NCBI GenBank assembly: GCA_009777775.1
Contig: WRLE01000004.1
Location: 1-64,000 of the forward strand
Reading direction: 5' to 3'
Length of the DNA stretch: 64,000 nucleotides
Source of the DNA: Oscillospiraceae bacterium
GTDB lineage: Bacteria; Bacillota; Clostridia; Oscillospirales; Oscillospiraceae
Part shown: piece after piece, positions 22,472 through 51,148 of the stretch
Position numbering within the stretch: position 1 is the first letter of the stretch
Layout of the letters: each line of letters starts with the position of its first letter
The notes under the pieces: generated by a model
The model's input: the letters and a program-made list of their open reading frames with translations, nothing else
Databases searched by the model: none
What the model was told of the DNA's origin: nothing
Translations under genes and position numbers: made by a program

Positions 22472-22605
22472 ACCGTTTCGATTCTCATTTATACGAGAAA
22501 CATGGAATGGGGTGAGATGCCCCGCGAGTAGGTCACTGTGATGCCTCTATAACGAGGATAAGTCAGATACATGTCGATTCGGTTCCGCACCTGCCATCAC
22601 CAGGT
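22472..22605 (+). promoter_or_regulatory. Cobalamin riboswitch (variant), copy 2
   Basis: The core from GAAACATGGAATGGGGTGAG to GTCAGATACATGT is nearly identical to copy 1, while P1 (ACCGTTTCGA at 22472 with TCGATTCGGT at 22574) differs in sequence but still pairs mostly, which is compensatory evidence for structure. The kissing hairpin 22589-22605 reads ACCTG-CCATCAC-CAGGT. It heads the long chelatase/nitrogenase-like run. Confidence 0.87.
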
Positions 22606-22622
22606 TGCGAGTTGCTTTATTA

Positions 22623-22659
22623 GCGTTCGTCATCTTTTGCAGGTACGAGCGCGTTTTTT
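22623..22659 (+). terminator. Riboswitch-controlled terminator, copy 2
   Basis: GCGTTCGT (22623-22630) pairs with ACGAGCGC (22645-22652), followed by GTTTTTT. GCAGGT in the loop competes for ACCTGC of the kissing hairpin, as in copy 1. Confidence 0.82.
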
Positions 22660-22700
22660 ATTGCTATTTTCTTAAATTGATCGTAATGGTACCTCCTTCT

Positions 22701-22751
22701 GTCACAACGTGGCGGCATTGGAATGGGAAGCCCATGCCGCAACGTTGGGAC
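22701..22751. other. Imperfect 21-bp hairpin in the leader before yezD
   Basis: Arms 22701-22721 and 22731-22751 pair with a few mismatches, centred on GCGGCAT/ATGCCGC. No T-run follows, so it is not a typical terminator. It lies between riboswitch copy 2 and the first gene and may stabilise or regulate the leader RNA. Confidence 0.5.
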
Positions 22752-22840: not shown

Positions 22841-23020
22841 TTGAGTGAAAACCGCAGAGAAAACGAAATAAATACGGATACAACCCAATTGTCCTTAACT
22901 GAACAAGAAGAAAAAATCATCGAAATACTTCGCAGCCTTGATTATGGAGAAATGCGGATTGTCGTAAAAGACGGAGCTGCTGTCCATATTGAAGAAATTA
23001 AAAAATCCATAAAACTATAA
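22841..23020 (+). CDS. YezD family (DUF2292) small protein
   Basis: The 59-residue product starts at TTG (22841), preceded by AAAGGAAGTG. Residues 21-50 read EEKIIEILRSLDYGEMRIVV and then KDGAAVHIE, the diagnostic YezD/DUF2292 pattern (aLrsl.YGsv.ivvqDG.vvqie). YezD-like peptides are often found near sulfur or metal assimilation genes; their function is unknown. It is the first gene after riboswitch copy 2 and is separated from the chelatase gene by a terminator-like element. Confidence 0.8.
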   Translation: MSENRRENEINTDTTQLSLTEQEEKIIEILRSLDYGEMRIVVKDGAAVHIEEIKKSIKL

Positions 23021-23189: not shown

Positions 23190-24206
23190 ATGGAAACAAC
23201 TGAAAAACGCGGCTACTGCTTTACTGCCATAGTAGGGCAAGAGGACATGAAAACAGCTCTCGTGTTAAACGTGATAAACCCCAACCTCGGTGGCGTACTT
23301 ATCCGTGGAGAGAAGGGAACGGCAAAATCTACAGCTGTAAGGTCACTTGCCGAGTTATTACCCCAGCGGGCGGAAGTAGCCGGCTGTAGATTCGGCTGCG
23401 ACCCTTCTGACAAAGCTCATCTATGCAATGAGTGTAAAGAAATACCGGAGGGAACAACTCCAGTTAGCTATGGGAAAATGGCAGTGATAGACCTGCCCGT
23501 GAGCGCAACTGAAGATCGGGTTGTGGGCACGCTTGACATGGAACATGCCATTAAAACTGGTGAAAAAAAGTTTGAAGCTGGGATATTGGCAAAAGCGAAT
23601 CGTAACATTCTATATGTGGACGAAGTAAACCTACTTGATGACCATGTGGTAGATGTGCTCTTAGATTCCGCTGCTATGGGTGTGAATACTGTGGAGCGCG
23701 AGGGTGTTTCCTACTCCCACCCGGCGCATTTCATATTGGTGGGAACGATGAACCCCGAAGAAGGTGATTTAAGACCGCAACTCATCGACAGATTTGCCCT
23801 TTCGGTTACAGTCGTGGGAGAAAGGGAAATTGAAAAACGCATATCTGTTGTTGAAAATAGGCTAAAGTTCGAAAACAGCCCCGAAGACTTTTTTGAAGAA
23901 TTTGAACCCATTCAACAGGAGCTACGCGACAGAATAACAAAAGCTCAGGAAATTTTTTCCCAGGTGACCTATTCCAGAGAGGTTCTGGAACGCATAGCCA
24001 GAATCTGCATCGAATTGGAAGTCAACGGTCATAGAGCTGACATAGTAATGCTGAAAACTGCGATGACCCTTGCAGCATATAATGGGCGGACTGAAGTAAC
24101 TGACGAGGATGTACTGGAAGCTGCCAAACTGGCACTTCCCCATCGTATGCGCAGAAAGCCCTTTGAAGAAGTTCAATTTGATTATGCCACAATCGCAAGT
24201 ATTTAA
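23190..24206 (+). CDS. Magnesium chelatase I-subunit-like AAA+ ATPase (BchI/ChlI type)
   Basis: The 338-residue protein has Walker [10 protein letters not shown] (about 39-47), Walker [12 protein letters not shown] (about 146-156), the sensor segment [19 protein letters not shown] with the arginine finger region, and the C-terminal lid ending in [12 protein letters not shown]. The insertion with [19 protein letters not shown] is usual for BchI relatives of anaerobes. I-subunits form hexamers with the D-subunit to power metal insertion by a large H/CobN subunit; candidates for both partners are encoded downstream. RBS GGAGGT is six bases before ATG. Confidence 0.92.
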
Positions 24207-24285: not shown

Positions 24286-25329
24286 ATGGAAAAACAATCA
24301 TTGGTATTATGGACAACAGGGAAATGTAACATTAGTTGCAAATATTGCTATGCCTGTGATGCGCCAAAATCAGATATGACATTCGATACTGCAAAAAGAG
24401 CAATTAGATTGATGGGAAATGCTCCTTTTGACATACAAATCAGCGGCGGAGAACCTTTATTAAATATAAAGCTTATTGAGCAAATATTGAAATATGCCAG
24501 TTCTTTGGATAGGGGAGTGGAATTCGCTATTCAAACAAATGGCATTTTATTAAACGACAAAATAGCAGAGCTATTCAAACGTTACAAAGTCGCCATTGGA
24601 GTCAGCTTGGACGGCAAGCCTGAAACAAATGAGTACCTACGGGGTAGTACGATTGAAGTCATAGAAGGAATCAAGCTACTTAGAGAACATAATTTAATGT
24701 TGAATCTCAATTGTGTGGTATCTGACTATAATGTTGATAGGCTCTGCGAAATGGTTGATATGGCTCTCTATTTGGGTAATGTAAGAGGAATCGGACTAGA
24801 CCTGCTGCGCAGCGCAGGGCGAGCATCACAAAATGAGGCTCTCATACGAAGCGCAGACGCAAATGCATTGGTGAGCGGGCTTAATGCTCTTCACGATTAT
24901 TTGGCTAAAGTCAACACCTTGATTCCCAGAAAAATAGTCCTTCGAGAATTTGAAAAAGCAAGAGCTCAATATGGAAAAAATGTCGAATCGAGGGATTACT
25001 GTTATGCATCCTCAGGAAGGTCCTTTGTTGTCTTGCCAAATGGTGACTGTTATCCATGCGGGAGCTTGATAAAGGACCCAAAATACTATATGGGCAACGT
25101 TTCAGGAAGTGTAAGTCCCATACCCATAGAATGTAGCACAGCTCCTGAGTGTAAATATTGTAAACATATGGACTATTGCACCGGAGGTTGTCCTGCAAGA
25201 ACTGTTTTAAGTGGCGGCTTTAGCGAGCTTGATTGTATCGTAAAAAAAGTCGCATTTGGATTCATTGAAAAGGGGGAGTCAAATGGAACGGGTAGTGTTT
25301 CCATTCACAGCAGTAATAGGACAAGATAA
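24286..25329 (+). CDS. Radical SAM protein with SPASM-like C-terminus
   Basis: The 347-residue protein has the radical SAM cluster motif C14-x3-C18-x2-C21 (GKCNISCKYCYAC), ISGGEPLL for SAM binding, and a C-terminal Cys-rich region (NGDCYPCGSLI; then PECKYCKHMDYCTGGC and ELDC) that fits a SPASM/Twitch auxiliary cluster. Proteins of this build activate enzymes or modify peptides and cofactors. It lies between the two chelatase motor genes, overlapping the D-subunit gene by 47 bases, so it is probably part of the same pathway. The substrate is unknown. Confidence 0.88.
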   Translation: MEKQSLVLWTTGKCNISCKYCYACDAPKSDMTFDTAKRAIRLMGNAPFDIQISGGEPLLNIKLIEQILKYASSLDRGVEFAIQTNGILLNDKIAELFKRYKVAIGVSLDGKPETNEYLRGSTIEVIEGIKLLREHNLMLNLNCVVSDYNVDRLCEMVDMALYLGNVRGIGLDLLRSAGRASQNEALIRSADANALVSGLNALHDYLAKVNTLIPRKIVLREFEKARAQYGKNVESRDYCYASSGRSFVVLPNGDCYPCGSLIKDPKYYMGNVSGSVSPIPIECSTAPECKYCKHMDYCTGGCPARTVLSGGFSELDCIVKKVAFGFIEKGESNGTGSVSIHSSNRTR

Positions 25330-27211
25330 GATAAAAAATGCGCTACTGTGGAACATAATTAACCCTAAAATCGGCGGTGTCCTCATTAGCGGAGAAAAAG
25401 GAACTGCGAAATCAACACTTATTCGTGGTGTTCCTGCCCTCAACGAAGATATAAAAATCGTGGAACTCCCATTAAATATCACCGAAGATCGCCTAGTGGG
25501 TGCCATCGATTTGAAAACAGCATTAATGCAAGGTGCTAAAACCCTTGACCCTGGTATTTTAAAGGAAGCAGATGGAAACATCCTTTATGTGGATGAAGTA
25601 AATCTGCTCAGCGACCATATTGTCAATGCCCTTTTGGAAGTCGCCGCCAGCGGAGTAAACAAAATCGAGCGGGAAGGTATTTCCGGTACCCATGACAGCC
25701 GTTTTATACTCATTGGCAGCATGAACCAAGAGGAGGGAAAACTGCGAACTCAATTTCTCGACCGTTTCGGTCTTTACGTTGAAGTGGAGAGCGAAAAGGA
25801 TCTGATGATGCGAATCGAAATAATGGAGCGACGACTAAACTATGAGTCTGATCCCCTTGCCTTTGTCCAACAATTCGCACAAATGACAAATGAATTAAAA
25901 ACAAGGGTAGAAGCGGCAAAAAAGCAATTGGAAAAAGTTGAAGTTACTGCAAATGCCATTCGCTTGGCTGCCACTTTATCCAGTAGCGCAAATTGTGCAG
26001 GACATCGAGGAGAGATCGTTCTCATAGAAACAGCAAAAGCCATCGCCGCATTCGATGGGCGCATTATGATAAACATAGACGATATTAGAACAGCAGCTGA
26101 ATACGCCCTTGCCCATAGAGCACAACCCGAACCTCAATACCAGCAAGAGGAAGACTGGCAAGAAGAAGAGCTCGACGATACACCAGACGACATGGAGCCG
26201 CCAGAGGATATGGAACAACCAGAGGAGCAGGAACAAGAGGAGCAGGAACAAGAAGAGCCGCCTCCACAAGAAGAGCAGGAGCCAGAAACGATTGAGCCCC
26301 CAGAGTTTGACGAGACTCCACCAGAAGATCCTCCCGACTCAATTGACAGCGAAGACCCTGATGAAGACGATGTGCAAGAAGCTGGCGAACTTTTTGTTAT
26401 CCCCCGCTGGCAAGATGCCCATGTAAACAGACAAATAAACAGGGGGACTGGTAGAAGAAACCTGGTAAAATCCAATAACAAACAAGGTCGCTATGTTGGA
26501 TATAGAATGGCTGGAAAAGAGCGAATTACTGACTTGGCCTTTGATGCCACTGTAAGAGCCGCTGCTCCTTACCAATCCATTAGGGACAAGGGTTTGAGAG
26601 CAATTGCCATAGAAAGCGAAGACCTGCGGGTCAAGATTCGAGAAAAGCGAACAGGCGGGTGCATCATTTTCGTTGTGGATGCGAGTGCTTCCATGGGAGC
26701 CAATAAACGTATGCGAGAAGTGAAGGCATCAATACTGTCCCTTCTTAGCGTTTCCTATCAAAAGCGAGACAGGGTGGGCTTAATCGCTTTTCGTAAAGAT
26801 TCTGCTGAGTTGCTTTTAGGCATTACTCGCTCGGTGGACTTGGCACAAAAGAAGCTTGCTGACCTCCCCACAGGAAATAAGACTCCATTGGCAAAAGGTC
26901 TGGATTTGGCATATGAAGTTGTCATGGGTCTAAAAATGAAGGACCCAGATGCCATACCCACCATTGTCCTAGTATCCGATGGGCGAGCCAGTGGAAAAAG
27001 CAGCCCCACTGCAAACCCCTTTGACGAAGCATTGAAATCGGCTCAGCGGATTGGAAACCAAAATATAAACACCATAATCCTAGATACGGAAAACGACTTT
27101 ATACGCTTTCATCTTTGCGAGAAACTCAACGAAAAACTGCGGGGTACATTGCTGACTATGGATGACCTCAAAGCGGAGGGAATTGTAGAAGCGGTATCGC
27201 GGTTTAGATAG
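25283..27211 (+). CDS. Magnesium chelatase D-subunit-like protein (BchD/ChlD type)
   Basis: The 642-residue protein joins an AAA+ domain (1-275, Walker [10 protein letters not shown], Walker [12 protein letters not shown]), a long acidic Glu/Gln/Pro linker (about 285-370) and a von Willebrand A domain (about 455-640) with an intact MIDAS DASAS near 464, PTGNKTPLAKG and VLVSDGRAS. Unlike many D subunits, the AAA domain keeps its Walker motifs. It should bridge the I-subunit ring to CobN-like proteins. I start at the ATG at 25283, with AGGGGGAG upstream, inside the end of the radical SAM gene. Confidence 0.92.
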   Translation: MERVVFPFTAVIGQDKIKNALLWNIINPKIGGVLISGEKGTAKSTLIRGVPALNEDIKIVELPLNITEDRLVGAIDLKTALMQGAKTLDPGILKEADGNILYVDEVNLLSDHIVNALLEVAASGVNKIEREGISGTHDSRFILIGSMNQEEGKLRTQFLDRFGLYVEVESEKDLMMRIEIMERRLNYESDPLAFVQQFAQMTNELKTRVEAAKKQLEKVEVTANAIRLAATLSSSANCAGHRGEIVLIETAKAIAAFDGRIMINIDDIRTAAEYALAHRAQPEPQYQQEEDWQEEELDDTPDDMEPPEDMEQPEEQEQEEQEQEEPPPQEEQEPETIEPPEFDETPPEDPPDSIDSEDPDEDDVQEAGELFVIPRWQDAHVNRQINRGTGRRNLVKSNNKQGRYVGYRMAGKERITDLAFDATVRAAAPYQSIRDKGLRAIAIESEDLRVKIREKRTGGCIIFVVDASASMGANKRMREVKASILSLLSVSYQKRDRVGLIAFRKDSAELLLGITRSVDLAQKKLADLPTGNKTPLAKGLDLAYEVVMGLKMKDPDAIPTIVLVSDGRASGKSSPTANPFDEALKSAQRIGNQNINTIILDTENDFIRFHLCEKLNEKLRGTLLTMDDLKAEGIVEAVSRFR

Positions 27212-27223: not shown

Positions 27224-28345
27224 ATGGATATGTTACTTGAAACACTAAGCACAGGAGAGGAAGTTCACTTTTATAGGAAATCCATTGTGATTAATTTCAA
27301 TGGAAACCGGAAAGTACTCAGCACTTCTGCAGACAACGGAGGCTATCGGGAAGATATAAAGGCTGTATATAACCATGATGGTACCATCGGAGCTGGAATA
27401 GCCACAACCTTGCGAGCTCCAACCCATGCAGAACATATGGCACTTATAGCCAGTGAAATTGGACTTGACCCCACCACCACCGTTGGAATTTCAACGGCTG
27501 CACAAATGGAGAATGTTTCCATCAAATCCGAAAGCCATCAAGAAATCATCGTCACAGCCATCGTAACCGGTGGAGTCGAAACCAATGGTGGAAGGGTTGG
27601 AGACCCAGCGAGTTGGGATGAGCTGGAAAGAATCAAAAGCGCTGCTCAAGCCAATGTGGGAGGCACAATCAATATTATTGTCCATATTAATGTTGATTTA
27701 TCCCCTGGAGCATTGGCACGCACTCTGGTGACTTGCACCGAAGCTAAAACCGCCGCTCTTCAAGAGCTGATAGCACCAAGCAGATACTCCATGGGTTTGG
27801 CTACAGGTTCTGGCACCGATAGCACCATTATCGTTGCCAATGCAGACTCTGATATAACTTTGACCAACGCAGGCAAGCATAGTAAATTTGGCGAGATTAT
27901 CGGTAAAGCTGTGAAAGCCGCTGTTAAAGAAGCTTTATTCAAACAAAGCAATCTCTCGCCCGATTCCCAGCATAATGTTTTGAAACGAGTGAGTAGATTC
28001 GGTATCAATAGCGATAAAATATGGGAAAGATATGTAGAAAATGGTGGCAAGGCTCCAAGGGCGAAATTTGAAGAATTTTCAGAACCTATGCTGATTGATG
28101 GTCCCCTTGTTACTTACATCTCTTTATACTGCCATATCCTTGACCAGCTCATGTGGGACTTGATATCTGTAAATGATGCAATCATCGCGACTACCGAGTT
28201 AATGCGTCTCATGGATATGAGCTTGCCGGAATTTGAACCAATTTCTCAATTGGGAAGTGGGATTCATATCCTTGTGGGTTATCTTGAAACAGGATTATGC
28301 GAACTAATAGCCAGAAAATTTGAAAGCGATGGTGAAAAATCTTGA
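27224..28345 (+). CDS. cbiZ: CbiZ-like adenosylcobinamide amidohydrolase
   Basis: The 373-residue protein matches CbiZ at residues about 55-235: VGISTAAQMENVSIKS, then VTAIVTGGVETNGGRVGDPA, TGSGTDSTIIVANAD and NAGKHSKFGEIIGKAV are landmarks. CbiZ cleaves the aminopropanol or lower-ligand side chain from adenosylcobinamide-type corrinoids, giving adenosylcobyric acid for salvage and remodelling. About 110 extra C-terminal residues are not part of the usual domain. RBS GGAGAGGAG is close to ATG. Its presence, with two cobalamin riboswitches, argues that the cluster handles corrinoids. Confidence 0.85.
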   Translation: MDMLLETLSTGEEVHFYRKSIVINFNGNRKVLSTSADNGGYREDIKAVYNHDGTIGAGIATTLRAPTHAEHMALIASEIGLDPTTTVGISTAAQMENVSIKSESHQEIIVTAIVTGGVETNGGRVGDPASWDELERIKSAAQANVGGTINIIVHINVDLSPGALARTLVTCTEAKTAALQELIAPSRYSMGLATGSGTDSTIIVANADSDITLTNAGKHSKFGEIIGKAVKAAVKEALFKQSNLSPDSQHNVLKRVSRFGINSDKIWERYVENGGKAPRAKFEEFSEPMLIDGPLVTYISLYCHILDQLMWDLISVNDAIIATTELMRLMDMSLPEFEPISQLGSGIHILVGYLETGLCELIARKFESDGEKS

Positions 28346-29181
28346 TTTCCTACAGAAATGTATCAAAAAAATACAACGGTTTGGAAGCGGTTTCCGACTT
28401 TTCCTTGGAAATAGAAAATGGCGAGTTTTTCGGTCTTTTGGGGCCCAATGGCGCGGGTAAAACCACATTAATTCGCATGACCACGACTCTAACGCCCATT
28501 ACTCAAGGGGAAATATATGTGGATGGTGAACCCATTGATCGTGATTTAACCGCAATCAAACAAAAATTCGGTATCGTACCCCAGTATAGTACTTTGGAAA
28601 ATGACCTAACAGCTTGGGAAAACCTGGAGCTACATGGGAGGTTTTACGGTATAGCGAAAAATACCAGAAGAGAAAGAATCGAGGAACTCCTAGAGTTTAC
28701 TGAACTAACTGATAGAAGAAACGATACTGCTGGTACTTTTTCAGGAGGAATGCAGCGCAAGCTCATGATTGCTAAGTCTTTGATGCATGGCCCGCAAATC
28801 ATGCTTTTAGACGAGCCAACAGTTGGGCTTGACGCTGCTTCCCGCAGAAAAATTTGGGATCTCATGCGACGGATGAACGAAGATGGACTAACGATTTTTC
28901 TCACCACCCACTATCTTGACGAAGCCGAAGCTCTCTGCTCTAGAGTGGGGATGATTGACCTTGGCAAGCTAGTCATGTTGGGTAATCCAAGCGAAATTAT
29001 CAGTCAAACCGGAAAATTCGCTTTGGAATACTTCAAAGAAGGCACAACTCATCAGGAACTCTTTGAAGAAAAAGAACCCGCCATGGAAGCGGCGAAACTT
29101 TTACAATGTGATTTCAAAATACGGGAAACAAATTTGGAAGACGCTTTCATCCTAATCACAAATAAAGGCTTTGGAGCCTAG
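28342..29181 (+). CDS. ABC transporter ATP-binding protein (DrrA type)
   Basis: The 279-residue ATPase has GPNGAGKTT (Walker A), FSGGMQRKLMIAKSL (signature) and IMLLDEPTVGLD (Walker B), plus the C-terminal extension of daunorubicin-resistance type ATPases. It starts at a TTG overlapping the stop of the cbiZ gene, so translation should be coupled. With the following permease it forms an exporter-type ABC system, unlike the importer encoded further downstream. A role in moving a corrinoid or porphyrin product or by-product is inference. Confidence 0.88.
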   Translation: MISYRNVSKKYNGLEAVSDFSLEIENGEFFGLLGPNGAGKTTLIRMTTTLTPITQGEIYVDGEPIDRDLTAIKQKFGIVPQYSTLENDLTAWENLELHGRFYGIAKNTRRERIEELLEFTELTDRRNDTAGTFSGGMQRKLMIAKSLMHGPQIMLLDEPTVGLDAASRRKIWDLMRRMNEDGLTIFLTTHYLDEAEALCSRVGMIDLGKLVMLGNPSEIISQTGKFALEYFKEGTTHQELFEEKEPAMEAAKLLQCDFKIRETNLEDAFILITNKGFGA

Positions 29182-29198: not shown

Positions 29199-29927
29199 AT
29201 GAGATTTAACGCTGTTTTATGGAAAGAATGGATAGTGTTTCGCAGAAAATGGTTATCCATAACAATGAGTGCAGTGGTGGGTCCGCTCCTTTATCTCATC
29301 GCCTTCGGCTGGGGATTGGGAAACACCGTTTCCGTTGGAGAGGTCAGTTATACTTCATTTGTAATACCAGGCATCATTGCGATGAATTCAATGTCCACCA
29401 GTTTCGGTGTCATAGCCAATGACATCAACATATCTCGGATATATGGAAAAACCTTTGAAGCCATCATGATGTCCCCCATACAGATGCGTACTTTCACCGT
29501 AGCGCGGGTCACAGGCGGTGCATTAAGGGGGCTATATACTGCCACTATTATTTTACTTGTTTCTTTCCTTTTTCACAGAGATATTACCATTGACGCATAC
29601 TTTGTCATCGTTCTTGTTTTAAATTGCTTCGTATTTTCCGCCATCGGTTTTATCGCTGGTATCCTAATAAACTCCCATGCAGATATGGCAAAGGTTACCA
29701 GCTTTGTTATAACGCCAATGTCCTTTCTTTGCGGGACTCTGTTCCCCTTGGACAGATTTCCTAAAGTTTTAGCGATTGCCTTTGAATCATTGCCCCTCAC
29801 CCAAACCGTAAAGGCTCTTCGTAGCGGGGTTTCTGACCCATCCTATTTGATGAGTCCAATGATTTTGGCAATCTATTTAATCGTTTTCATGCTCCTTGCG
29901 ATTAGGATTTGCAGGCGAGCTGAATAA
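29199..29927 (+). CDS. ABC-2 type permease (DrrB/NodJ type)
   Basis: The 242-residue membrane protein has about six hydrophobic segments and the ABC-2 hallmark region KTFEAIMMSPIQMRTFTVAR, then TPMSFLCGTLFPLDRFP near the fifth helix. RBS TAAGGAG is 10 bases before ATG and 17 bases after the ATPase gene. It is the membrane partner of that ATPase. The exported compound is not known. Confidence 0.88.
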   Translation: MRFNAVLWKEWIVFRRKWLSITMSAVVGPLLYLIAFGWGLGNTVSVGEVSYTSFVIPGIIAMNSMSTSFGVIANDINISRIYGKTFEAIMMSPIQMRTFTVARVTGGALRGLYTATIILLVSFLFHRDITIDAYFVIVLVLNCFVFSAIGFIAGILINSHADMAKVTSFVITPMSFLCGTLFPLDRFPKVLAIAFESLPLTQTVKALRSGVSDPSYLMSPMILAIYLIVFMLLAIRICRRAE

Positions 29928-29995: not shown

Positions 29996-32900
29996 ATGTA
30001 CAAAATCGTTTTCTTTATACAAAGCGCATCGGATGGATATTATTTTAGGCAGGCATACGAGGAACTCAAGGAAGAAATTGAATTTACAGGTTCTTTTTAC
30101 AGCACAGGCTTGATAGACAGTGACAACGATGAATTTATCAGATGTAACGAGGACATTCAAAACGCTGATTTCATCTACATGAACCTGCATAGCGGAATCC
30201 CCTATTTCAAAAGTTTTGTAAAGCTAGACTTCCTTGGAAAAATCCCTTCATACATTCATTCTGGTATGGATGGAGAAAATACAGAAATGCAAAAGCAATC
30301 TGCTCTTTCTCCAATTATTTATCAAAAACTTTTTCCATATCAGTTCGCAGGTGGACCTGAAAATAGCAAAAACTTTTTACGGATTATTTTAAATGAACTT
30401 GCCCATATCGACTGCACTATTGGCGATGTAATAATACCAAAATGGGATGGGCTTTACGGGGTTCCTGAAGCTTATGACGACGATGAATATCTCCAAATAG
30501 TTGCAAATGAAACAGAGAAGGAGCGAATTGGCATTCTTGTCCATTTTAGCTCAGTCCAAAATGCAAACACTGCACATATAGATGCGCTAATGAAAGCTAT
30601 CGAGGATCAAGGGGCTATCCCCCTTGCCATGTATTCAAATGTTGTACCCAGCGGGATTCATGGAGGTCTTCGAGAAGCACTGAATAAATATTTCCAAGTC
30701 GATGGGAAAAGCATAATAGATACATTGATAGTCACCAGTGGCTTTTCTCTGACTATCCTCTCATCACCTGGAGACGGTTCCCAAAAGGGTATGCTGCTCC
30801 CAGCAGACGATAGGGAAGAAAGCAGCATATTTGAATTTCTCGATGTGCCTGTACTTCAGGCGATGACCACCTATTTCACATATGAGCAGTGGCTCGAATC
30901 CCTTGCAGGACTTGATGCTATGGCATTGAGCTCTGCTGTGTTCCAAACTGAATTCGATGGACAAATCATTACTGTACCAATTGCCAGCACAGAAATAGTC
31001 CCCACGGATTTTGGTCCAAAAAGTGTAAGCATTCCCATCGATGACAGAATAGACAGGGTTGTAAGGCTAAGTATAAACTGGGCGAAACTTAGAAAAACAC
31101 CAATTGAGGACAAGAAGGTAGCTATAATATTCCATAATATGCCCCCCAGAATCGACCAAATAGGTAGTGCTTATGGACTCGACTCCCCTGTTTCTGTACA
31201 CAATCTATTCGAGCTTTTGAAAGCAAAGGGGCTTACTTTAGATTATGATTTTGAAAATGGTAAAGACATCATCGACGAAATCATCAACGGCGTAACAAAT
31301 GACGAACGTTTTTTGTCCGAAGCTCAGATACTAGAGCGAAGTGCAGCAGTGGTGGAGCGGGAAGATTATGCACCATGGTTTCAGGCATTATCAGAAAAAA
31401 TCCAAGATGAGCTTCGTCGTGATTGGGGAGAGCCTCCGGGCGACTACCTGACAATCGATGGAAAAATCCTGGTTCCCGGTATTATTAACGGAAACCTATT
31501 CATTGGATTGCAACCACCTCGGGCTCTCGATGAAAAAGCAGAAGAAGCATACCATTCCACCGACATCGTTTGCCCGTATCAATACATAGCTTTTTATCAT
31601 TATTTGGAACATATCTTCAAAGCCGATGTGATTGTCCATATCGGAACACATGGCACAATCGAATGGTTACCTGGGAAGGAAATCGGTTTATCAAAGGACT
31701 GCTATCCCAACATAGCCATTGGTGAAATGCCCCACTTGTATTTATACATTATCGATGTTCCTGGCGAAGGTGCCCAGGCAAAGCGCAGGACAGATGCGGT
31801 GATACTGGACTATCTCATTCCATCAATGACCGAGGGCGGTCTATATGGCAGTCTGGAACTTATCGATGATTTCATCACCCAGTATTATCACAGTAAAATC
31901 GCCGATAAAGCAAAGCTTCCGATAATCGAAGAGCAAATTTGGAATGCTTCCGTGGACAGCAATCTTCACACAGACTTAGATATGACCCAGGAACAGTTTA
32001 ATGAAGAGCCTGAAGCCTCCATCGAGAGAATCCATCTGTGGATTAGCGATTTGAAGAGCGCAAAAATAAAAGATGGCTTACATATCTTTGGGAAAGTTCC
32101 CCAAGAAGCTCGTTTGAATAATATGCTAAGGCTTTTGGTGGGTATACGTAATGGTGGTACCCCATCTCTGCGAGAGTCTCTATGCACGCTCACTGGGGAA
32201 GACCTGGAAGAGTTTTTGACAAATCCCGGAGGGCAGCATATCTCAGGGAAGACAAATGCTATGATACTAGAAGAAATCGATGATATAGGCAGAATTGTCT
32301 TTGCTACCCTGGAAGAATATGAATACTCCTTGGAAGCAGTGGAAAAAGCATTGGCTCAAATGAGTGAAGCATATCCCGAAGGCAATATCAACGACCTTAG
32401 TAAATGTCTATATTTTGCAATCAATGATGTGCTTCCTAGACTTCGCTCCACCACCGACGAGCTTCTTTACTTTGATAGAGGAGTCGATGGCAGGTTTGTA
32501 CCTCCAGGACCATCTGGAGCCCCCAGCCGAGGCAATGCGACGATACTTCCCACAGGGAGAAACTTTTATATGACAGACCCCGCAGCCATACCGGGAAGGT
32601 CAACCTGGGAAACTGGAAAAATGCTGGGCGACCAGCTCATGGAACGTTATCTGAAAGACGAAGGTCGTTATCCTGAAAGCGTTGCCATCGTCGTTTACTC
32701 TGGCGAGACTATCAAAACCAGGGGCGATGATATAGCAGAGATACTTTATCTATATGGAGTCCGTCCTGTTTGGATTCAAAATACAGAGCGAGTCATTGGT
32801 CTCGAAGTGATACCCTTGGAGGAACTGGGTAGACCCAGGATAGATGTCACCCTTAGAATCAGCGGACTCTTCCGAGACACATTCCCCAATCTCATCGAGA

Positions 32901-41302: not shown

Positions 41303-41374
41303 CAATTAACAATTAATAATGAATAATGAACAATGAATAATAAGCATCAAATAATTATGAAGGAGCAATTTAAA

Positions 41375-42675: not shown

Positions 42676-45600
42676 ATGACTCGGATTGTTTATTTAGCGC
42701 AGATGTCTGTTGATGCAGCGTTTTGGGGCGAGTTTAGCGATGAGATGTCTCGAAGATTCTCTGGTGAATTTGATTTGCAATACTATGAATGCACTGAACT
42801 TGGTCAAAACGTGGAATTATATTATGAATTTGAAACACAAGCATTAAAAAGCGACTTGATAATGGTTGATATACATGGGAGCATCACTTATGTCAATTTC
42901 TTTGACAAGTTTTTAAAGACAATGACTGGAACAAAGCGTCTGTTCATCATGTGCGGAATAGAGCAGGAAGTGTCTGAGCTGATGGGGAGCATGGGCATTA
43001 GTCCGCTCCAATATGCAATGATAGAGGCATATATAAAAGCTGGCGGTATCGAAAATTATTTATCCATGGCTCAATATATCGCCAACGAATTTGCGAAGGC
43101 TTCCTTTGATGTTCCAGAACCTGTTTTCACCAAATGGCAATGTCTATATGAGCCTGGTGGTCCCATTGCCGATGAAGAGGCTTACTTGAAAATGGCGCGG
43201 GAATCTTCAAAGCCTCGTATTGGTGTTCTTGTTCACGAAAACCAGCTAAAAAAGAATGACATGAGAGCCTTTGATGCGCTCCATGATGCCTTGTTTCGAT
43301 GTGGTGCGCAGCCTATTGTGCTGGTGACCAATTTAGCTCCTTCACCCCATTCCAAGTCCCTCAGTTTTTCCGATGCCCTAAGGCATTATTTCACCCAAGA
43401 TGGATACCCGATTGTTGATGCTATTATCAACACTTTGGGTTTTTCCGTCAGCGTATTGTCCCAGCCTTCTGACGGCAGTGCTCCCAGGGTGGAAAAGAGT
43501 GTCTTCGAGCTGACCAACGTTCCTGTTTTAAAGGCTCTGCATACTTGGTATGACTATGAACAATGGAGAAACTCGCCCAGGGGTTTAGATGCGATGATGT
43601 TGGGCGTTTGCGTATATGAACCTGAATACGATGGTCAAATCATCACCTTTCCAATAAGTGTGAAGGAAGTTGAGCAAACTCCTTACGGAGCTCGCAGTGT
43701 TTATGCACCCATAGCGGAAAGAGTTGATAAAATCAGTAAGCTAGCCTGTAATTGGGCTCGTTTAAACAAAATCCAATCCGCAGATATGAAAATTGCTGTG
43801 ATACTGCACAATTCACCCCCTCGCAACGATATGATTGGCTGTGCTCATCAATTGGACACTCCCGAGTCTATATTTAATATGCTAACTGCTCTAGAGAATA
43901 GCGGAATAGATATGGAGTATTCCTTTGTAAACGGCAGAGAAATCATTGATACCATAACAGATGGACTCACAAACGATGGAGGCTGGCTTACTGAAGAAAG
44001 GATGCTGGAGCTGGCTTGCGATACAGTCCAAGGAGATCAATATAACAAATGGTTCGACACTTTTGACGAATCTGTTAAAGAAAAAATGATAGAGGATTGG
44101 GGTCCACCCCCAGGTAGCTTCATGGCGGTGGATGAGCAAATACTCATACCAGGAATCCTCAATGGAAATGTATTCATTGGCTTGCAACCTCCTCGCGCCC
44201 ATGAGGAAAAGGCGGAAGAGAGCTACCATAGCACAGACTTTGTATGCCCACACCAATATATCGCCTTTTATAAATGGGTGGAGGAAGTATTCAAAGCTGA
44301 TGTCATTGTCCATGTTGGAACACATGGGACTCTGGAATGGTTACCTGGCAAGGAAATAGGTCTCTCCGATGCCTGCTATCCAGATTTGGCAATCGGTACC
44401 CTTCCCCATTTATACATCTACAATGTGGCAGTCACAGGAGAGGGGATGCAGGCAAAACGCCGCAGCTATGCTACTCTCATTGGCCATATGGTTCCCTCCA
44501 TGAAAGAGGGTGGAACCTATGGCGAGCTTGCTGAAATGGATGAGCTCATCGAAGATTATTATCACGCTCGAAACGCTGCTCCCCAGAACCTTCCTGTGTT
44601 ATATGAGCAGATTTGGGAGCTGGCTGTGAGGCTGAATCTTCATCAAGATTTGAATATTGACGAAATGCCTTCATTGGAAAACAATGGTATGGATACTTTC
44701 ATCGAAGACCTGCATATTTGGATCAGCAGAATCAAAGAATCCCAGGTTCGAGACGGTTTACATATCTTGGGTCATGTTCCCCAAGGTGAGCTATTTTCCA
44801 ACTTATGCCGGCTTCTGGTTCGGGTGAAAAATGGCATTGTTCCCTCTTTGCGGGAGGCTATTTGCGAAAAGAACGGACTTGACCTGGATGATCTCATTGA
44901 AAACCCAAAGGATATATTACCCAATGGTCGTACAAAGCGGATGCTCTTGGAAGAAGTGGACGAGGAAGGACGGCTGATTTTCCAGGCTCTCCTTGAAAAA
45001 GACTTCGATGTTTCCGCTGTAAGGGAGCTGGCTGGTGGGGGTATGCTGCGTGAGTGCCTTACATATGTCTGCGAAAAAATAGTTAAGGATCTGCGGCGCA
45101 TGGGAGATGAAACGGACAATTTTGTCATAGGTAGCCAGGGACAGTTTATTCCACCCGGCCCTTCTGGAAATCCCAGCCGCGGCAATGCGGCGATTTTGCC
45201 CACAGGTCGGAATTTTTATTCAATGGACCCAGGTGCTATGCCCTCTCGAACTGCTTGGGTAGTGGGGCAGAAATGCGCTAATCAAATGTTGGAACGGGAG
45301 CTTGAAGCATCTGGAGAATATCCCCATTCCGTCGCCACCGTCATATATGGCGGCAATACTTTAAAGACAAGTGGAGAAGACCTTGCCGAGGCCCTTTATT
45401 TAATGGGTGCTAGACCAGTTTGGCTAGGCAACACCGACAGGGTAATTGGGATGGAAGTCATACCGCTAGAGGAGCTGGGTAGACCGAGAATAGATGTTGT
45501 TTTGCGCATTACAGGCTTGTTTCGAGATATGTTTCCAAATATGATTGAGCGTCTAGAAGATGCAGTCAATATGGTTGCAGCCTTAGATGAATCCTATGAA

Positions 45601-46410
45601 GACAACTATGTTCGCAAGCATATCGAAGAAGAGATTGTGCGAATGATTGCCGAGGGTGCCGAGCGGGAGCAAGCCTTTGAAAGGGCTTCTGTTCGCATAT
45701 TCGGCTGCCCACCGGGTGGCTACGGTGCTGGTGTGGATACACTGATTTATAGCAAAAAATGGGACACAGTGGAGGACTTGGGTAATATTTATATACGCTG
45801 GAGCGCTCATGCTTATGGTAAAAAGCTCCATGGGGAGTTGCTTCAAGATGAGCTTAGGGCTGCCCTTTCTCGAAGTACTGTGACTATTAATAATATTTCC
45901 TCGGTGGAGATGGATATGTTCGACACCGATGACGATTTTTTATACCACGGTGGTTTGATTGCTGCCATTCGTTCTTCCAGTGGTGAAAAGCCTAATTCTT
46001 ATTCTTCCGATAGTTCTGATTTGGATCATATAGAGACTGTTACATTGCAGGAGGAGACAGCAAGGGTCATGCGGGCTAGGATTAATAATCCTATTTGGCG
46101 AGAGGGACTCATGAGGCATGGTTATAAGGGTGCCCAAGAGGTTTCTGCCATGGTGGATTATGTTTTCGGTTGGGATGCCACTGCAGATAATATCGAAGAT
46201 TGGATGTATGATGAGATTACGAAAAATTTTGTCCTTGATCAGAAGATTCGTGATTGGATAAATGATGTAAATCCTTGGGCGATGTATGCGATTACTGCTC
46301 GTTTGCTGGAGGCTGTCCAGCGGAATATGTGGAATATAGACGAGGAAATGCTTTCTCAGCTAAAGGAAATTTTCATGGAAGCTGAAGGAGAGCTCGAAGG
46401 TCGAAATTAA
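42676..46410 (+). CDS. CobN/BchH-type chelatase large subunit, paralogue 3
   Basis: The 1244-residue protein is most similar to paralogue 1: it shares [40 protein letters not shown] (His 546 and 550 intact), [34 protein letters not shown] and [11 protein letters not shown]. It is followed by the nitrogenase-like genes. All core motif residues are present, so it should be able to bind metal and tetrapyrrole. Insertion versus removal, and which metal, cannot be told. RBS TGGAGGGA precedes ATG. Confidence 0.92.
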   Translation: [1244 protein letters not shown]

Positions 46411-46569: not shown

Positions 46570-46625
46570 TCCGACATTAATATACAAAACAACCCTGTAC
46601 TATATTGAAAGGAATAGGTGAATAT

Positions 46626-48905
46626 ATGGAACTGGCAATATATGGGAAGGGTGGAATTGGGAAGTCTACTATTGCGGCTAATTTGTCTGCTGCTCTTTCC
46701 TCCCATGGGCGACAGATTTTGCAGATTGGTTGCGATCCTAAGCACGATTCCACCAGGTTGCTTTTATCTGGGAGGTCTCCAAGGACTGTTTTGGATTATA
46801 TGCGTGTAACCAATCCTCCTGAGTATTCAATAGATGCAATACTAGAGATTGGTTATGGTGGCGTAGGTTGTGTTGAGGCTGGTGGTCCGGAGCCTGGAGT
46901 GGGTTGCGCTGGGCGTGGGATTATTTCCATGTTCGAGCTTTTGAGTCTGTTTGGGCTAAAGGATAAGTATGACATAACTTTATACGATGTCCTGGGTGAT
47001 GTGGTTTGCGGCGGGTTTGCGGTGCCTATTCGACGCGAGTATGCTGATACAATTTTCATCATCACTTCAGGTGAATATATGGCATTATATGCGGCGAATA
47101 ATATTCTGCGTGGCATAAGAAACTACGATGGGGATGATAGTCGTGTAGCTGGTATTATACTAAATCGCCGTGGTCTTGTGGGTGAAAGCGAACGTGCCAG
47201 TCGCTTTGCCGATGCGGTGGGTTTGCCATTGGTGGCTGATATCCCACGAAGCGAGATTTTTGCCCAGGCAGAGGCGCGGAATATGACTTTGACAGAGTTT
47301 GAACCTGAAAGCCAAGAGGCAAATATATTTATTGATTTGGCGAAAGGTCTAGTAAATGGGATTAGTAAGTTTCCAGCCAACCCACTTACCGACGAAGACC
47401 TGGAACGAACAATTTTAGGAACTGAAACCTCAATACAAATCACCATGGGAGCTTTTGTGGAATCCGAATCAACATCGCAAATCATCATGGGAACAAATGG
47501 GATTTGCGAATCGACCGAAGCTTGTTTTAAAGCAGAAAATGCGGAAAACACAGACAATAAAACTGAGAATCCCGTTAATAGCATTGATTTATCGTCGACA
47601 AACCGCTATTTTTCAAAAAATGTGATGCGAGGTGAACCACTCACCAGTTGCGCTTTTAACGGTGCATTGGCGATTAGTACTCAAATAAGAGATGCTGTGG
47701 TACTAGCACATGCACCTAAAAGCTGCGTATATATCTCATATAATTCCATGAGTTCCACTGGAAGGCGACAGCTTTTCGAACGCGGCTCTCTGTTGCCATC
47801 GGCAGTTACACCCAATCTCCAAGCCACTGATATGGATGAAAGCGAAATGGTCTTCGGTGGCATGGGGAAGCTTACAGATAAAATAGAAGAGATAAAAGCT
47901 TCACAACCAAAGGCAATAATCGTAGTCAGTGCTTGTCCTCCAGCAATAATCGGCGACGATATCGACAAGATGCGTGATTTAAGTGCGATGAACACACCCA
48001 TCTTCACTTTACGCACAGATGGCAATATGTCTGGAGATTACACGCAAGGTGTGTTAATGAGTTATATGGAGCTTGCAAGACAAATAATACGCCCAGATGT
48101 GAAACCAGAAGACAATGTGGTGAATATACTCTTTGAAAGGCCAATATCGAGAAATACTTTAGAAAACTATGAAATGATAGAATCATATTTAGACCAAATG
48201 GGAGTGGAGGTAAACTGCCGTTTTCTTTGCGATACGAAATACGATAATCTCGCTAATTTCAAAAGAGCCTCCCTTAATATACTAGCCAACCACGATTTTA
48301 CCAGCGAAATGCTCAAGGAGTTTTTTATTAAGGAGTATGATTCTAAATTCTTTGACCTAAAACTACCTGTGGGTTTCCATGAAACCGAAGACTGGCTTCG
48401 GAGTATTGGGGAGATTTTTGGCAAAGAATCCATTGCAGAAGATATTATCGCGAAAAATAAGATACGTTACGATAAGGAAGTTTCACTCCTAAATAAGTCA
48501 ATGAAGGGTCTGCGTTTAATGGTTGTTACATATAGTCACGATTTGGATTGGCTTCTGGGCGCAGCTTTTGATGCAGGGATGGAAATAGCAAAGCTTTGCA
48601 TCTTGTACTCATCGACAAACGATGGTTTTCAGACTCGCTTCCCTGTTAACTTTGAAATTGAAGAGAATTACAATGTGGGAAATCGAAGCCGAGACATAGA
48701 AAGAACAAAGCCTGATATATTGCTTACCAACTATACATTCGAGCCCTCTGGTCCGCTGCGACTGGCAGACAGACTTCCAATGAGTCCGATTTCAGGGTTT
48801 TTCACCGGACTTGATATGCTAAATCGCTGGGAGGGACTTTTGGCAATGAATCTGAAAGGAGAATGGGAAAAAGATGAACAGCTATTTAACCAGTATTACG
48901 CCTGA
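46626..48905 (+). CDS. NifH-like and NifD-like domains fused in one protein
   Basis: The 759-residue protein begins with a NifH/BchL-type ATPase (1-265): P-loop GKGGIGKST, CDPKHDST, and cluster ligands Cys94 and Cys128. A poorly conserved linker (about 270-325) leads to a NifD/BchN-type domain (about 330-759) with Cys342, Cys367 and Cys437, spaced 25 and 70 like the three P-cluster cysteines of NifD. The NifD catalytic-cofactor ligands are not recognisable. Such proteins pass electrons, at ATP cost, to a reducible substrate, often a tetrapyrrole. I start at ATG 46626; a TTG seven codons earlier lies within the RBS region. Confidence 0.87.
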   Translation: MELAIYGKGGIGKSTIAANLSAALSSHGRQILQIGCDPKHDSTRLLLSGRSPRTVLDYMRVTNPPEYSIDAILEIGYGGVGCVEAGGPEPGVGCAGRGIISMFELLSLFGLKDKYDITLYDVLGDVVCGGFAVPIRREYADTIFIITSGEYMALYAANNILRGIRNYDGDDSRVAGIILNRRGLVGESERASRFADAVGLPLVADIPRSEIFAQAEARNMTLTEFEPESQEANIFIDLAKGLVNGISKFPANPLTDEDLERTILGTETSIQITMGAFVESESTSQIIMGTNGICESTEACFKAENAENTDNKTENPVNSIDLSSTNRYFSKNVMRGEPLTSCAFNGALAISTQIRDAVVLAHAPKSCVYISYNSMSSTGRRQLFERGSLLPSAVTPNLQATDMDESEMVFGGMGKLTDKIEEIKASQPKAIIVVSACPPAIIGDDIDKMRDLSAMNTPIFTLRTDGNMSGDYTQGVLMSYMELARQIIRPDVKPEDNVVNILFERPISRNTLENYEMIESYLDQMGVEVNCRFLCDTKYDNLANFKRASLNILANHDFTSEMLKEFFIKEYDSKFFDLKLPVGFHETEDWLRSIGEIFGKESIAEDIIAKNKIRYDKEVSLLNKSMKGLRLMVVTYSHDLDWLLGAAFDAGMEIAKLCILYSSTNDGFQTRFPVNFEIEENYNVGNRSRDIERTKPDILLTNYTFEPSGPLRLADRLPMSPISGFFTGLDMLNRWEGLLAMNLKGEWEKDEQLFNQYYA

Positions 48906-50166
48906 CAGTATTTCCGGAATCTTATTTGCCCTAGAAGGTGTTTCCGGGAGTGTGGTATTGCTCAACGGACCCATGGGATGTAGATCATTTCACTCTTCAA
49001 CAAGCGAAAGACAACTGATTAGACCCTACGAATTTGATCCCCTAGATTATGGAATGAAATGGTATTTCGGTCAAAATCGTATACCCAGCACCTATTTAGA
49101 TTCTGGAGATTATATATATGGTGGGCGGGAAAAACTCATTGAAGCTTTAAAATTCATTAATCAAAATGTGCGCCACAACTTGGTAGCAATCGTAAATACA
49201 CCTGGTGCTGCACTTATCGGCGATGACCTTGTGGGTATTGCAAGAACAGTTTTCGGCGAAAAGAAAGTCGTAACTGTTGAGACTCCTGGCTATTCTCTCG
49301 ATTTATGCGCTGGCTATGAAACTGGGGTATTTGCTCTTCTGGACGCATTGAATCCTCCAAAATTACCTGTGGTGAAAAAGACGGTGAACCTTCTTGGTCT
49401 GTCTATTATACAAAGGTACTTCAAAGGCGACCTCATGGAACTGGAGCGTCTGCTGAGCCTTTGCGGAATCGAGATAAATTGTGCGCTCTGCGTTGGGTCT
49501 ACGGCTGAAGAAATTAACAATATTTCCACCGCAGAGCTTAACCTTGTTGTTCGCCCAGAGTATGGTTACAGTACAGGCATGCGTCTCAATAAGCAATATG
49601 AAACACCTTACCATATTTGTGATAGTGCTCCAATCGGCTTTGCAGCAACAGAGCAGTTCATTAGAGAAATATGCCATACTCTTGATTGCGACCCAGAGCT
49701 GGCGATTGATGACATAAATCGTGCCAGAGCAGATGCGTATATTCACGTCTCCCATATCAATGCCGGCTATGGCTTACCCAAAGGTGTACGAGTTGCCGTC
49801 GAGGGTACATATTCAGAGATTTATGGTTACTTTAAGTTTCTCACCGAGTACCTGGGTATGCTCCCCCATAGTGCATCGGTATTGTGTCCAGACGCTGATA
49901 TTATGAAAGAAAAATATGAAGAGCAAATGCAAACCTATGGCTTGTCGGATGTTATCAATCGAGATTTCTTCACAGACAGAAAAAGTGAGCTTGTATTCGC
50001 TTCTGGTATGACAATATCCCAGCTAAAAGACACTGGGATGCAATTCGTTGGAGTGGAAAATGCACTACCTAGCTTGGGTTATGTTGATGTTATACCCAAG
50101 ACTCATTTAGGGGTAAAGGGTTCTCTGCAAATAGTTGAGCAAGTGCTTAATGCGCTTATATTTTGA
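48874..50166 (+). CDS. NifK/BchB-like subunit of a nitrogenase-like reductase
   Basis: The 430-residue protein has the nitrogenase component 1 fold and overlaps the fused gene by 32 bases, so the two should form a complex. GPMGCRSF places Cys36 at the second P-cluster position of NifK. The first Cys position is Asp11 by alignment, and the third (before the IGDDL motif) is not Cys (NTPGAALIGDDL). One Cys here plus three in the NifD-like domain could hold a single [4Fe-4S] cluster, much as BchN and BchB share one. It is not a nitrogenase beta subunit. Confidence 0.83.
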   Translation: MNSYLTSITPDSISGILFALEGVSGSVVLLNGPMGCRSFHSSTSERQLIRPYEFDPLDYGMKWYFGQNRIPSTYLDSGDYIYGGREKLIEALKFINQNVRHNLVAIVNTPGAALIGDDLVGIARTVFGEKKVVTVETPGYSLDLCAGYETGVFALLDALNPPKLPVVKKTVNLLGLSIIQRYFKGDLMELERLLSLCGIEINCALCVGSTAEEINNISTAELNLVVRPEYGYSTGMRLNKQYETPYHICDSAPIGFAATEQFIREICHTLDCDPELAIDDINRARADAYIHVSHINAGYGLPKGVRVAVEGTYSEIYGYFKFLTEYLGMLPHSASVLCPDADIMKEKYEEQMQTYGLSDVINRDFFTDRKSELVFASGMTISQLKDTGMQFVGVENALPSLGYVDVIPKTHLGVKGSLQIVEQVLNALIF

Positions 50167-50188
50167 TATTTCAACAATTGGAGGAAAT

Positions 50189-51148
50189 ATGAAAACGATA
50201 ATGAACTTTACAACCAGTTATTATGATCTAGATAGATACGAAGATAATAACGACTTAAAGGCTGCATATAAAATGCACGGAATCGATGGAATCGAGCTGA
50301 TGCAGTCTGGAGAAGATGAAAAAGAGAAAGTAAACATTGATGATGTCATCGGGATACATCTCAAATATTTCCATTATTGGACACCCGTGTGGAAAGGCGA
50401 TACAAATGCAATATTGGCTGAATACGACTCCATGGAAAACTGCGAAATGGTCTTTGGAGGAGTTGGTCGTGAGGGTATCCTTTCTGCATATGAGCAAAAT
50501 CTCAACTTTGCTAGGCATTATTCACCAGAATACGCAGTCTTCCACGTTGCAGATATATGTCTACAAGATAGTATTACTCGAAATTATACAAATACCGATT
50601 TGGAAGTAATTGATGCCACCATCGAGCTTGTCAATGAAATATTACCTGCAGATAGCGCTCAATTTCAATTGTTGTTTGAAAACTTATGGTGGCCTGGCAT
50701 GACCATGAAAGAACCAGATATGGTTGAGTATTTACTGAGCAAGATAGAATATGGAAATTGTGGGGTCATGTTGGACATTGGTCATCTATTACATACAAAT
50801 ACGTCATTACGCTCTCTTGAAGAGGGTATAGATTATATTTACAACCTTTTAGAAAAATACAACAATCTTGATTTTGTCAAAGGTATTCACCTTCATCAAA
50901 CATTGAGTGGGCAGTATGTAGAGGATGTGTTGAAAAACCCTCTAGTTTTGGATGGTAACTTCAGTGAGCGTTATTCTCAAACAGCTCGTCATGTGATGAA
51001 CATAGACAACCACAAACCCTTTATCTCGGAGCGAATACAGGAATTGGTTGAATACATAGCTCCCCAATTTTTAGTATATGAATTTATTTCATCAACCCGC
51101 GAAGAACACGAAGGATACTTAAGAGAACAAGCTACTTGCTTTTCATAA
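50189..51148 (+). CDS. TIM-barrel protein of the sugar isomerase/epimerase type
   Basis: The 319-residue protein has an AP-endonuclease-2/xylose-isomerase-like barrel: HGIDGIELMQSGED for strand 1, FQLLFENLWWPGMT with a likely metal-binding Glu, GVMLDIGHLLHT with Asp-His, VKGIHLHQTLSG with His and a final YEFISS. These are the usual metal ligands of the superfamily. Start ATG 50189 has GGAGG six bases upstream. It is last in the long run and only 22 bases after the NifK-like gene, so a role on the same substrate is likely; the reaction is unknown. Confidence 0.75.
   Translation: MKTIMNFTTSYYDLDRYEDNNDLKAAYKMHGIDGIELMQSGEDEKEKVNIDDVIGIHLKYFHYWTPVWKGDTNAILAEYDSMENCEMVFGGVGREGILSAYEQNLNFARHYSPEYAVFHVADICLQDSITRNYTNTDLEVIDATIELVNEILPADSAQFQLLFENLWWPGMTMKEPDMVEYLLSKIEYGNCGVMLDIGHLLHTNTSLRSLEEGIDYIYNLLEKYNNLDFVKGIHLHQTLSGQYVEDVLKNPLVLDGNFSERYSQTARHVMNIDNHKPFISERIQELVEYIAPQFLVYEFISSTREEHEGYLREQATCFS

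Follow-up and report, generated by a model that had tools for sequence, protein, structure and literature searches.

What does a nitrogenase-like reductase do in a run of genes for corrinoid uptake and metal chelation? The question is raised by the first 64,000 nucleotides of contig WRLE01000004.1 from an Oscillospiraceae bacterium (assembly GCA_009777775.1), the whole stretch analyzed here and hereafter called the window, which is part of contig C4 of the 2.8-Mb host genome. Sixteen large genes, all on the plus strand, occupy positions 23190–51148 and, judged by their open reading frames, overlap or are separated by gaps of at most 222 bases. We found that this cluster joins two separable modules: module A, comprising a BtuFCD-type importer, CbiZ, CobN, ChlD and ChlI, often with a radical S-adenosylmethionine (SAM) protein and an exporter, and module B, a fused NifHD with NifK. 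Several distant microbes have this same fused enzyme amid their B12-salvage genes, so this nitrogenase branch probably acts on B12 and not on nitrogen. In our view the cluster fairly probably serves to salvage corrinoids and includes a nitrogenase-like enzyme that reduces them at the expense of ATP.

The NifHD fusion and NifK in other genomes

The fusion lies at 46605–48905, with its ATG start probably at 46626, and matches PF00142 (E-value 2.4e-89) and PF00148 (1.6e-66); the NifK-like subunit (48874–50166) is supported by Pfam and NCBIfam matches. When we searched with the NifD half, we obtained 44 loci in named genomes, many of them metagenome-assembled genomes (MAGs), which by their record titles fall into nine phylum-level groups (Bacillota, Actinomycetota, Bacteroidota, Spirochaetota, Desulfobacterota, Chloroflexota, Planctomycetota, Acidobacteriota and an archaeon). 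NifK is present at 40 of the 44; those without it are L074, L075, L083 and L084, the last two being cut by a contig end. The L080 fusion is broken into two reading frames. Across 394 genomes of the order, the host gave the sole match to the NifD half at an E-value of 1e-30. Among 50 of the 264 records of a plasmid search, what lay under the match was named nifH or bchL or had no annotation.

The neighborhoods of several of these fusions point to cobamide salvage. In a Treponema MAG (L059) the gene order is PF01923 adenosyltransferase, BtuF, BtuC, BtuD, NifHD, NifK, CobU, TIM barrel, CobT and CobS; the same ten protein clusters occur in L062, and the adenosyltransferase cluster is also found in L063. 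A Labilibaculum locus (L058) has TIM barrel, BtuF, BtuC, BtuD, BtuF, NifHD, NifK and a TonB receptor together with four cobalamin riboswitches, and an Acidobacteria locus (L077) has BtuC, BtuD, a CbiA/CobB-type protein, NifHD and NifK. DUF4430 proteins, with a putative intrinsic-factor-like role, stand near the fusion in L042, L043, L047 and L064. Counting a BtuC/BtuF-type importer, a Pfam-confirmed DUF4430 protein or a riboswitch as a corrinoid marker, 22 of the 44 loci carry at least one.

In the 39 loci searched (586,771 bases), we identified 32 above-cut-off cobalamin riboswitches in 15 loci, against about 1.3 expected from 307 riboswitch matches in 136.4 Mb of 40 of the genomes concerned; this 24-fold enrichment may be too high because the background took matches to an E-value of 0.01 and, for many of these genomes, scored no more than 48 candidates. 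Three genomes, those of L080, L083 and L084, are missing from the background; L080 and L084 contribute two of the 32 matches. In seven loci (L053, L058, L066, L071, L074, L079 and L084) the riboswitch precedes the fusion, or the run containing it, on the coding strand; in others the element is divergent, downstream or farther away.

As a side observation, a diphthamide-synthase-like ATP pyrophosphatase (PF01902) adjoins the fusion in four loci (L064 at 5400–6068, by Pfam, and the same protein cluster in L047, L049 and L073). By eye, a similar protein is also found among the corrinoid genes on host contig C7 (L101 at 14830–15495).

Conserved residues, fold and phylogeny of the reductase

We aligned 29 D, 22 K and 20 H sequences, omitting from the D and H sets L077 and L078, which lack the D motif used for cutting. 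The P-loop and the two [4Fe-4S] cysteines expected of a NifH-type ATPase (Cys94 and Cys128 in alignment numbering) are invariant in all 20. At the D/K interface, three D cysteines occupy the ligand columns in 29 of 29 sequences and one K cysteine in 22 of 22, but a second K cysteine at column 72 (12 of 22, the window not among them) and a fourth invariant D cysteine, Cys209, mean that the cluster may differ from this three-plus-one model. The cysteine that ligates the iron-molybdenum cofactor (FeMo-cofactor), Cys275, is found in none of the 29 D sequences and in all seven references picked for this motif; the position is Y, H, N, F or M in the fusion and Cys in the alignment of D chains of methylthio-alkane reductase (Mar). 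For the second cofactor ligand, His442, the C-terminal region gave no useful alignment. These residues fit one [4Fe-4S] cluster, putatively in place of a six-cysteine P-cluster, and no FeMo-cofactor.

Against the established tetrapyrrole reductases, the NifHDK enzyme scored 199 bits to BchL (cut-off 345), 82 to BchB (490), 35 to BchN with its D part (420) and 305 to CfbC with its NifH part (402). By these scores it is not the chlorophyll-pathway reductase DPOR proper, since the BchL, BchB and BchN cut-offs are all failed, and the CfbC score and the separate D and K subunits indicate that it is not CfbCD. The K model is nearest in fold to DPOR (BchB), and by sequence the best match of the K profile among PDB chains is the Mar K chain (E-value 9e-34). 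In the NifH tree, 27 fused NifH parts stand on one side of the tree, though with a node support of only 0.32, and Nif, CfbC-like and other NifH sequences form a group with a support of 0.93; the fused NifH parts are not placed with the CfbC-like sequence. The host has a second, unfused nitrogenase-like NifH with an adjacent D/K-like gene (C2:99166, L111), and because this one groups with CfbC-like NifH, no true NifH is evident among the host NifH homologs.

The chelatase and importer module

A first-pass annotation of the window had listed ChlI/ChlD motors, three CobN subunits, CbiZ, a radical SAM protein, an exporter, a BtuFCD importer with two receptors, NifHD, NifK and a TIM barrel, and every one of these gene classes is backed by Pfam or NCBIfam matches and lies on the plus strand. 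The chelatase motors are a ChlI/BchI-like AAA+ protein (23190–24206; 413 bits to TIGR02030 and 491 to TIGR02442, below the cut-offs of 467 and 779) and a ChlD/BchD-like AAA+/VWA protein (25256–27211; VWA_2, and 665 bits to TIGR02442, below 779). A CbiZ-type adenosylcobinamide amidohydrolase follows (27224–28345; PF01955, E-value 4.2e-54), then the DrrA-like ATPase (28342–29181; TIGR01188, 276 bits, below the cut-off of 312) and permease (29199–29927; PF01061, 1.1e-20) of an ABC-2 exporter. The importer consists of two BtuF-like receptors, a lipoprotein at 33859–35142 (PF01497, 5.8e-23) and a second at 41333–42568 (PF01497, 7.1e-12), a BtuC-like permease of the FecCD/BtuC type (39021–40055; PF01032, 9.9e-78) and a BtuD-like ATPase with a C-terminal extension (40052–41302; corrinoid ABC transporter ATPase NF007082, 211 bits, below 537).

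All three CobN proteins match PF02514, CobN2 in two pieces. The TIGR02257 cobaltochelatase cut-off of 822 bits is passed by CobN1 (29996–33799; 919 bits) and CobN3 (42676–46410; 929 bits) and failed by CobN2 (35217–38798; 525 bits), and CobN3 is nearest to a CobN chain in the PDB (7c6o, 696 bits, versus 357 bits for HmuS). At an HxxxH pair that we read from its conservation as a CobN motif (H548 and H552 in CobN1), both histidines are kept in CobN1, CobN3 and the rest of the other 12 aligned CobN sequences, and the window CobN2 has two aspartates. The CobN2-type proteins of L086 and L089 have N and H, and E and K, at these positions; one L098 CobN, although its best score is with CobN2, has both histidines. 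Because its putative active-site motif is degenerate while CobN1 and CobN3 keep theirs, CobN2 is probably a helper, and the three genes probably represent two catalytic-type copies plus this one. A CobN with one or both of these histidines replaced, encoded with an intact CobN, recurs in three places: the window (35217–38798), L086 (13608–17171) and L089 (11062–14697).

Of 40 fusion genomes 16 have CobN, as do 6 of 290 other genomes of the class; the first set spans many phyla and the second a single class. Two members of the second set (G031 and G232) hold the fusion, neither of them with CobN. Among the 18 fusion genomes with a Bacillota taxon in their title, by which they were sorted, seven have CobN. 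Module A by itself is found elsewhere in the class: four genomes (G163, G090, G184 and G054) have BtuF, BtuC, BtuD, CbiZ, CobN, ChlD and ChlI together, with the radical SAM and exporter pair in the first three and a CobN2-type protein in the last three. In G054 the CobN2-type protein is the sole whole CobN, the CobN1/3 pieces being short. G189 and G226 have CobN, ChlID and BtuCD-like genes. None of these six CobN genomes of the class has the fusion, NifD matches being weak in four and absent in two. Conversely, no CobN relative was found at any of the 44 fusion loci within the fetched flanks (up to 10 kb, less on short contigs).

Elsewhere the modules share a genome at a distance. Clostridium tetanomorphum DSM 4474 has BtuF, BtuC, BtuD, CbiZ, CobN, radical SAM, exporter, ChlI, ChlD and TIM-barrel genes in one run (L090/L091) behind a cell-wall-binding protein and a cobalamin riboswitch, with NifHDK elsewhere in the genome (L048). 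In a Treponema MAG, one contig (L089) carries BtuC, BtuD, BtuF, CobN1, ChlD, CbiZ, CobN2 and TIM barrel, and a different contig (L061) carries NifHDK together with BtuCD. A partial union occurs in one other genome, a Eubacteriaceae MAG, where the adjacent stretches L086 and L087 hold BtuF, BtuC, BtuD, CobN3, CobN2, ChlD, NifHD and NifK on one strand; ChlI, CbiZ, radical SAM, exporter and TIM-barrel genes were not seen within these 31 kb. This NifHD is the highest-scoring relative found (1045 bits) and is sister to that of the window in the NifH tree.

Since module A, module B and a partial union all recur, the combination is more than chance. The first-pass proposal of a recurring, corrinoid-linked pathway of import, CbiZ side-chain removal, chelatase subunits and a nitrogenase-like reductase is supported by the partial union and the CobN counts. 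Its picture of one indivisible pathway is not supported, given the lack of CobN in the fetched flanks of the fusion loci and the four class genomes with the importer, CbiZ and chelatase block and no fusion. A chelatase requirement that seems confined to some hosts is in keeping with its being a module of its own.

RNA leaders upstream of the cluster

Two plus-strand leaders, 1.85 kb apart, have an identical 35-base core and much flanking sequence in common. Leader 1 (20600–20830) matches the cobalamin riboswitch model RF00174 at 20616–20747 with 20.4 bits (E-value 0.005), below the gathering cut-off of 31.5 bits. Leader 2 (22440–22690), ahead of the cluster, has its core at 22509–22543 and the B12-box-like motif AGTCAGATAC. 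The cobalamin riboswitch that the first-pass annotation had placed at 22472 has no cobalamin match in Rfam at the cut-off or at E-values of 1 or 10, and at 10 only two minus-strand matches appear, which we take for chance; what speaks for it is that it is a near-copy of the sub-threshold leader 1.

Allowing up to three mismatches, we found the core at five places in 3 of 394 genomes of the order, the host included, and at three places in 2 of 393 other genomes. The motif lies downstream of the core at all five. The three non-host sites (G662 C1:656256 and C1:1280511; G643 C51:1784), have no RF00174 match up to an E-value of 1; one of them precedes a DUF4430 protein of 1699 amino acids, another a YitT-family gene and another a 1220-amino-acid frame with no Pfam match. 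We read both leaders as a putative RNA of a divergent cobalamin type, conserved across these sites and either missed by Rfam or scored below its cut-off. Directly 3' of leader 1 is a gene for 512 amino acids (20843–22381) with no Pfam match; its co-regulation with the cluster is possible.

Proposed pathway and alternatives

From the computed gene content, homology, conserved residues, recurrence and riboswitch association, we infer every reaction, substrate, cluster type, expression condition and export direction of the following pathway. The cluster would be a corrinoid-acquisition and remodeling operon that is on when cobamide is scarce. Corrinoids would be imported by BtuF1/F2–BtuC–BtuD, and CbiZ would cleave off their nucleotide-loop side chain, leaving a ring of the cobyric-acid type. 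CobN1 and CobN3 with ChlI and ChlD may form an ATP-driven chelatase by which the central metal is inserted or exchanged in incomplete or wrongly metallated rings, with CobN2 probably a helper or carrier. The NifH part would deliver single electrons, driven by ATP, to a [4Fe-4S] cluster whose ligands would be three cysteines of NifD and one of NifK, and from there they would reach a corrinoid sitting at the cofactor site of nitrogenase. Most likely this would be a low-potential reduction at cobalt, towards Co(I) with the upper ligands off, followed by adenosylation and rebuilding. Adenosyltransferases require Co(I), and we prefer cobalt reduction because the L059 run holds the fusion together with an adenosyltransferase and nucleotide-loop genes. 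The second option would be that the corrin ring itself is reduced, by analogy with DPOR and CfbCD; ring reduction as first proposed is therefore retained as one option, cobalt reduction being at least as likely. The ABC-2 exporter may expel an unused part or analog.

Several observations weigh against this salvage proposal, beginning with the additional K and D cysteines described above. For the D part, the nearest chains by sequence are those of nitrogenase, NifE and Mar, and the top-ranked Foldseek matches are nitrogenases and Mar. Half of the fusion loci (22 of 44) have no scored corrinoid marker, though some of their contigs are short, their neighbors are partly annotated, and L070, L075, L078, L082 and L085 were outside the RNA search; several fusions adjoin unrelated genes, such as branched-chain amino-acid or zinc transporters, an AMP-binding enzyme or a proton pyrophosphatase. 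No above-cut-off riboswitch was found in L086, L087 or L089, and the window leader is itself below the Rfam cut-off, its type being read from likeness. The host also has four corrin-type TP-methylase matches on contig C9 behind a cobalamin riboswitch, and CobT, CobU and BtuFCD-like genes (named by eye) on C7 behind another, so the cluster would add to B12 synthesis and not replace it, which puts the host's need for it in doubt.

Among the alternatives, the cluster might strip or swap cobalt, with the reductase labilizing the metal, CobN/ChlID extracting it and the exporter expelling the emptied ring. There is precedent in the CobN relative HmuS, which takes iron from heme with NADH and no ATP as described in PMC12583661, and importer, exporter and chelatase genes share one run in the window. 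We still hold stripping to be unlikely: control by a cobalamin riboswitch would fit corrinoid supply, not destruction, the ChlI and ChlD motors favor ATP-driven insertion, and only 16 of the 40 fusion genomes have CobN at all. We are equally doubtful of a bolder account, in which a corrinoid-dedicated nitrogenase branch extends over nine phylum-level groups and here acts with CobN/ChlID on imported corrinoids under anaerobic conditions to replace or remove their metal, reduction making the metal loose, the chelatase moving it, the exporter discarding the remainder and the leader being a new cobalamin-riboswitch variant perhaps tuned to a pathway intermediate. The HmuS precedent, together with a weak similarity of the receptors to IsdE, would also be in line with iron salvage from heme or porphyrin, which we consider highly improbable. 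CobN1 and CobN3 pass the cobaltochelatase cut-off, CobN3 is far nearer to CobN than to HmuS, CbiZ is present, and the riboswitches near the family are of the cobalamin class; the first-pass suggestion of porphyrin import has little support on these grounds, and for its idea of metal or nitrogen salvage we found no support.

A new F430-like cofactor is quite unlikely, whereby a CfbCD-like reductase would act on an a,c-diamide and CobN would insert the metal. The 305-bit CfbC score, although below its cut-off, and a CbiA/CobB-type gene adjoining NifHD in L077 and L078 are in its favor, but K is a subunit of its own in NifHDK where CfbD stands alone, the tree does not place the NifH parts with the CfbC-like sequence, and several neighborhoods indicate cobamide salvage. 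It is very unlikely that NifHDK is an unrelated nitrogenase-like enzyme, for example one for sulfur salvage such as MarHDK, placed beside corrinoid genes by chance. The K profile does match Mar best, the D profile also matches Mar D, and half of the loci are markerless, but such an enzyme would leave the excess of riboswitches over expectation unaccounted for, the FeMo-cofactor cysteine present in the Mar alignment is absent from the fusion, and the K fold is nearest DPOR.

Relation to known systems

Established nitrogenase-like enzymes serve chlorophyll, bacteriochlorophyll and F430 synthesis, sulfur salvage and nitrogen fixation, and a corrinoid branch would, to our knowledge, be the first to act on the B12 ring. 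Like DPOR (BchLNB) and CfbCD, the window system pairs a NifH-type donor with a D/K-type acceptor whose residues fit a [4Fe-4S] cluster and not FeMo-cofactor, with K nearest BchB; unlike them, its H and D parts are fused, its scores are far below the BchL, BchB and CfbC cut-offs, and its neighbors include corrinoid genes. MarHDK (PMC12552129) is the best sequence match of the K profile in the PDB, but is described there as using nitrogenase-type metalloclusters, whereas the window D lacks the cofactor cysteine and K has one invariant cysteine. HmuS (PMC12583661) belongs to the same CobN/ChlH superfamily as the window CobNs, but in the window CobN1 and CobN3 are cobaltochelatase-like and ChlI and ChlD are present.

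The closest described counterpart of module A is operon-2 of Dehalobacter restrictus PER-K23, reported as syntenic with Acetobacterium woodii and strongly induced under corrinoid starvation, which comprises a cobalamin riboswitch, a FepBCD/Btu-type importer, CbiZ, CobN and magnesium-chelatase subunits (PMC4285132, 2015). By this published description, as opposed to its sequence, its importer, CbiZ, CobN and chelatase motors all have counterparts in the window; the word 'nitrogenase' is absent from the main text of that paper, unlike the window cluster with its NifHDK. A NifHD fusion was mentioned by Dos Santos et al. in 2012, who named cobalamin reduction as a possible role of other NflD proteins (PMC3464626), and a 'fused nifH/nifE' is mentioned in PMC4153887. 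The earlier-mentioned fusion has the same architecture and is very likely of the same family as that of the window, but in the passages concerned it is given as 'data not shown' with no corrinoid link. Judged by titles and the starts of abstracts in the open-licence literature, we found, among the papers listed, none that connects corrinoid salvage with a NifHD fusion or with any other protein of the nitrogenase-like kind; the fusion has thus been known since 2012, and its B12 link appears new to that literature. If true, the link would offer a specific candidate for the step in which anaerobes reduce the corrinoids they salvage, ahead of adenosylation, as well as a function for the fused NifHD family. 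It would also suggest a reason for CobN/ChlID in an anaerobe that probably inserts cobalt at an early step of its own corrin pathway, by a different route.

Other genes of the cluster

The radical SAM protein (24286–25329; PF04055, 5.6e-17) has a CNISCKYC motif and a Cys-rich C-terminus. With the exporter, its SPASM-like character could suggest a ribosomally synthesized and post-translationally modified peptide, a reading we rejected: the protein is closest to PapB but scores 116 bits against a cut-off of 340, and no precursor peptide was seen on inspection by eye. The last gene of the cluster encodes an AP_endonuc_2-type TIM barrel (50135–51148; PF01261, 5.1e-08) for which a later in-frame start codon is likely. 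A sequence search of the PDB with it gave zero matches; relatives occur near NifHDK or CobN in L058, L064, L066, L089 and L091, and an AP_endonuc_2 protein in L059. The 16 large genes are preceded by a small plus-strand gene (22841–23020) for a DUF2292 protein of 59 amino acids (PF10055, 26.9 bits, above the cut-off of 22).

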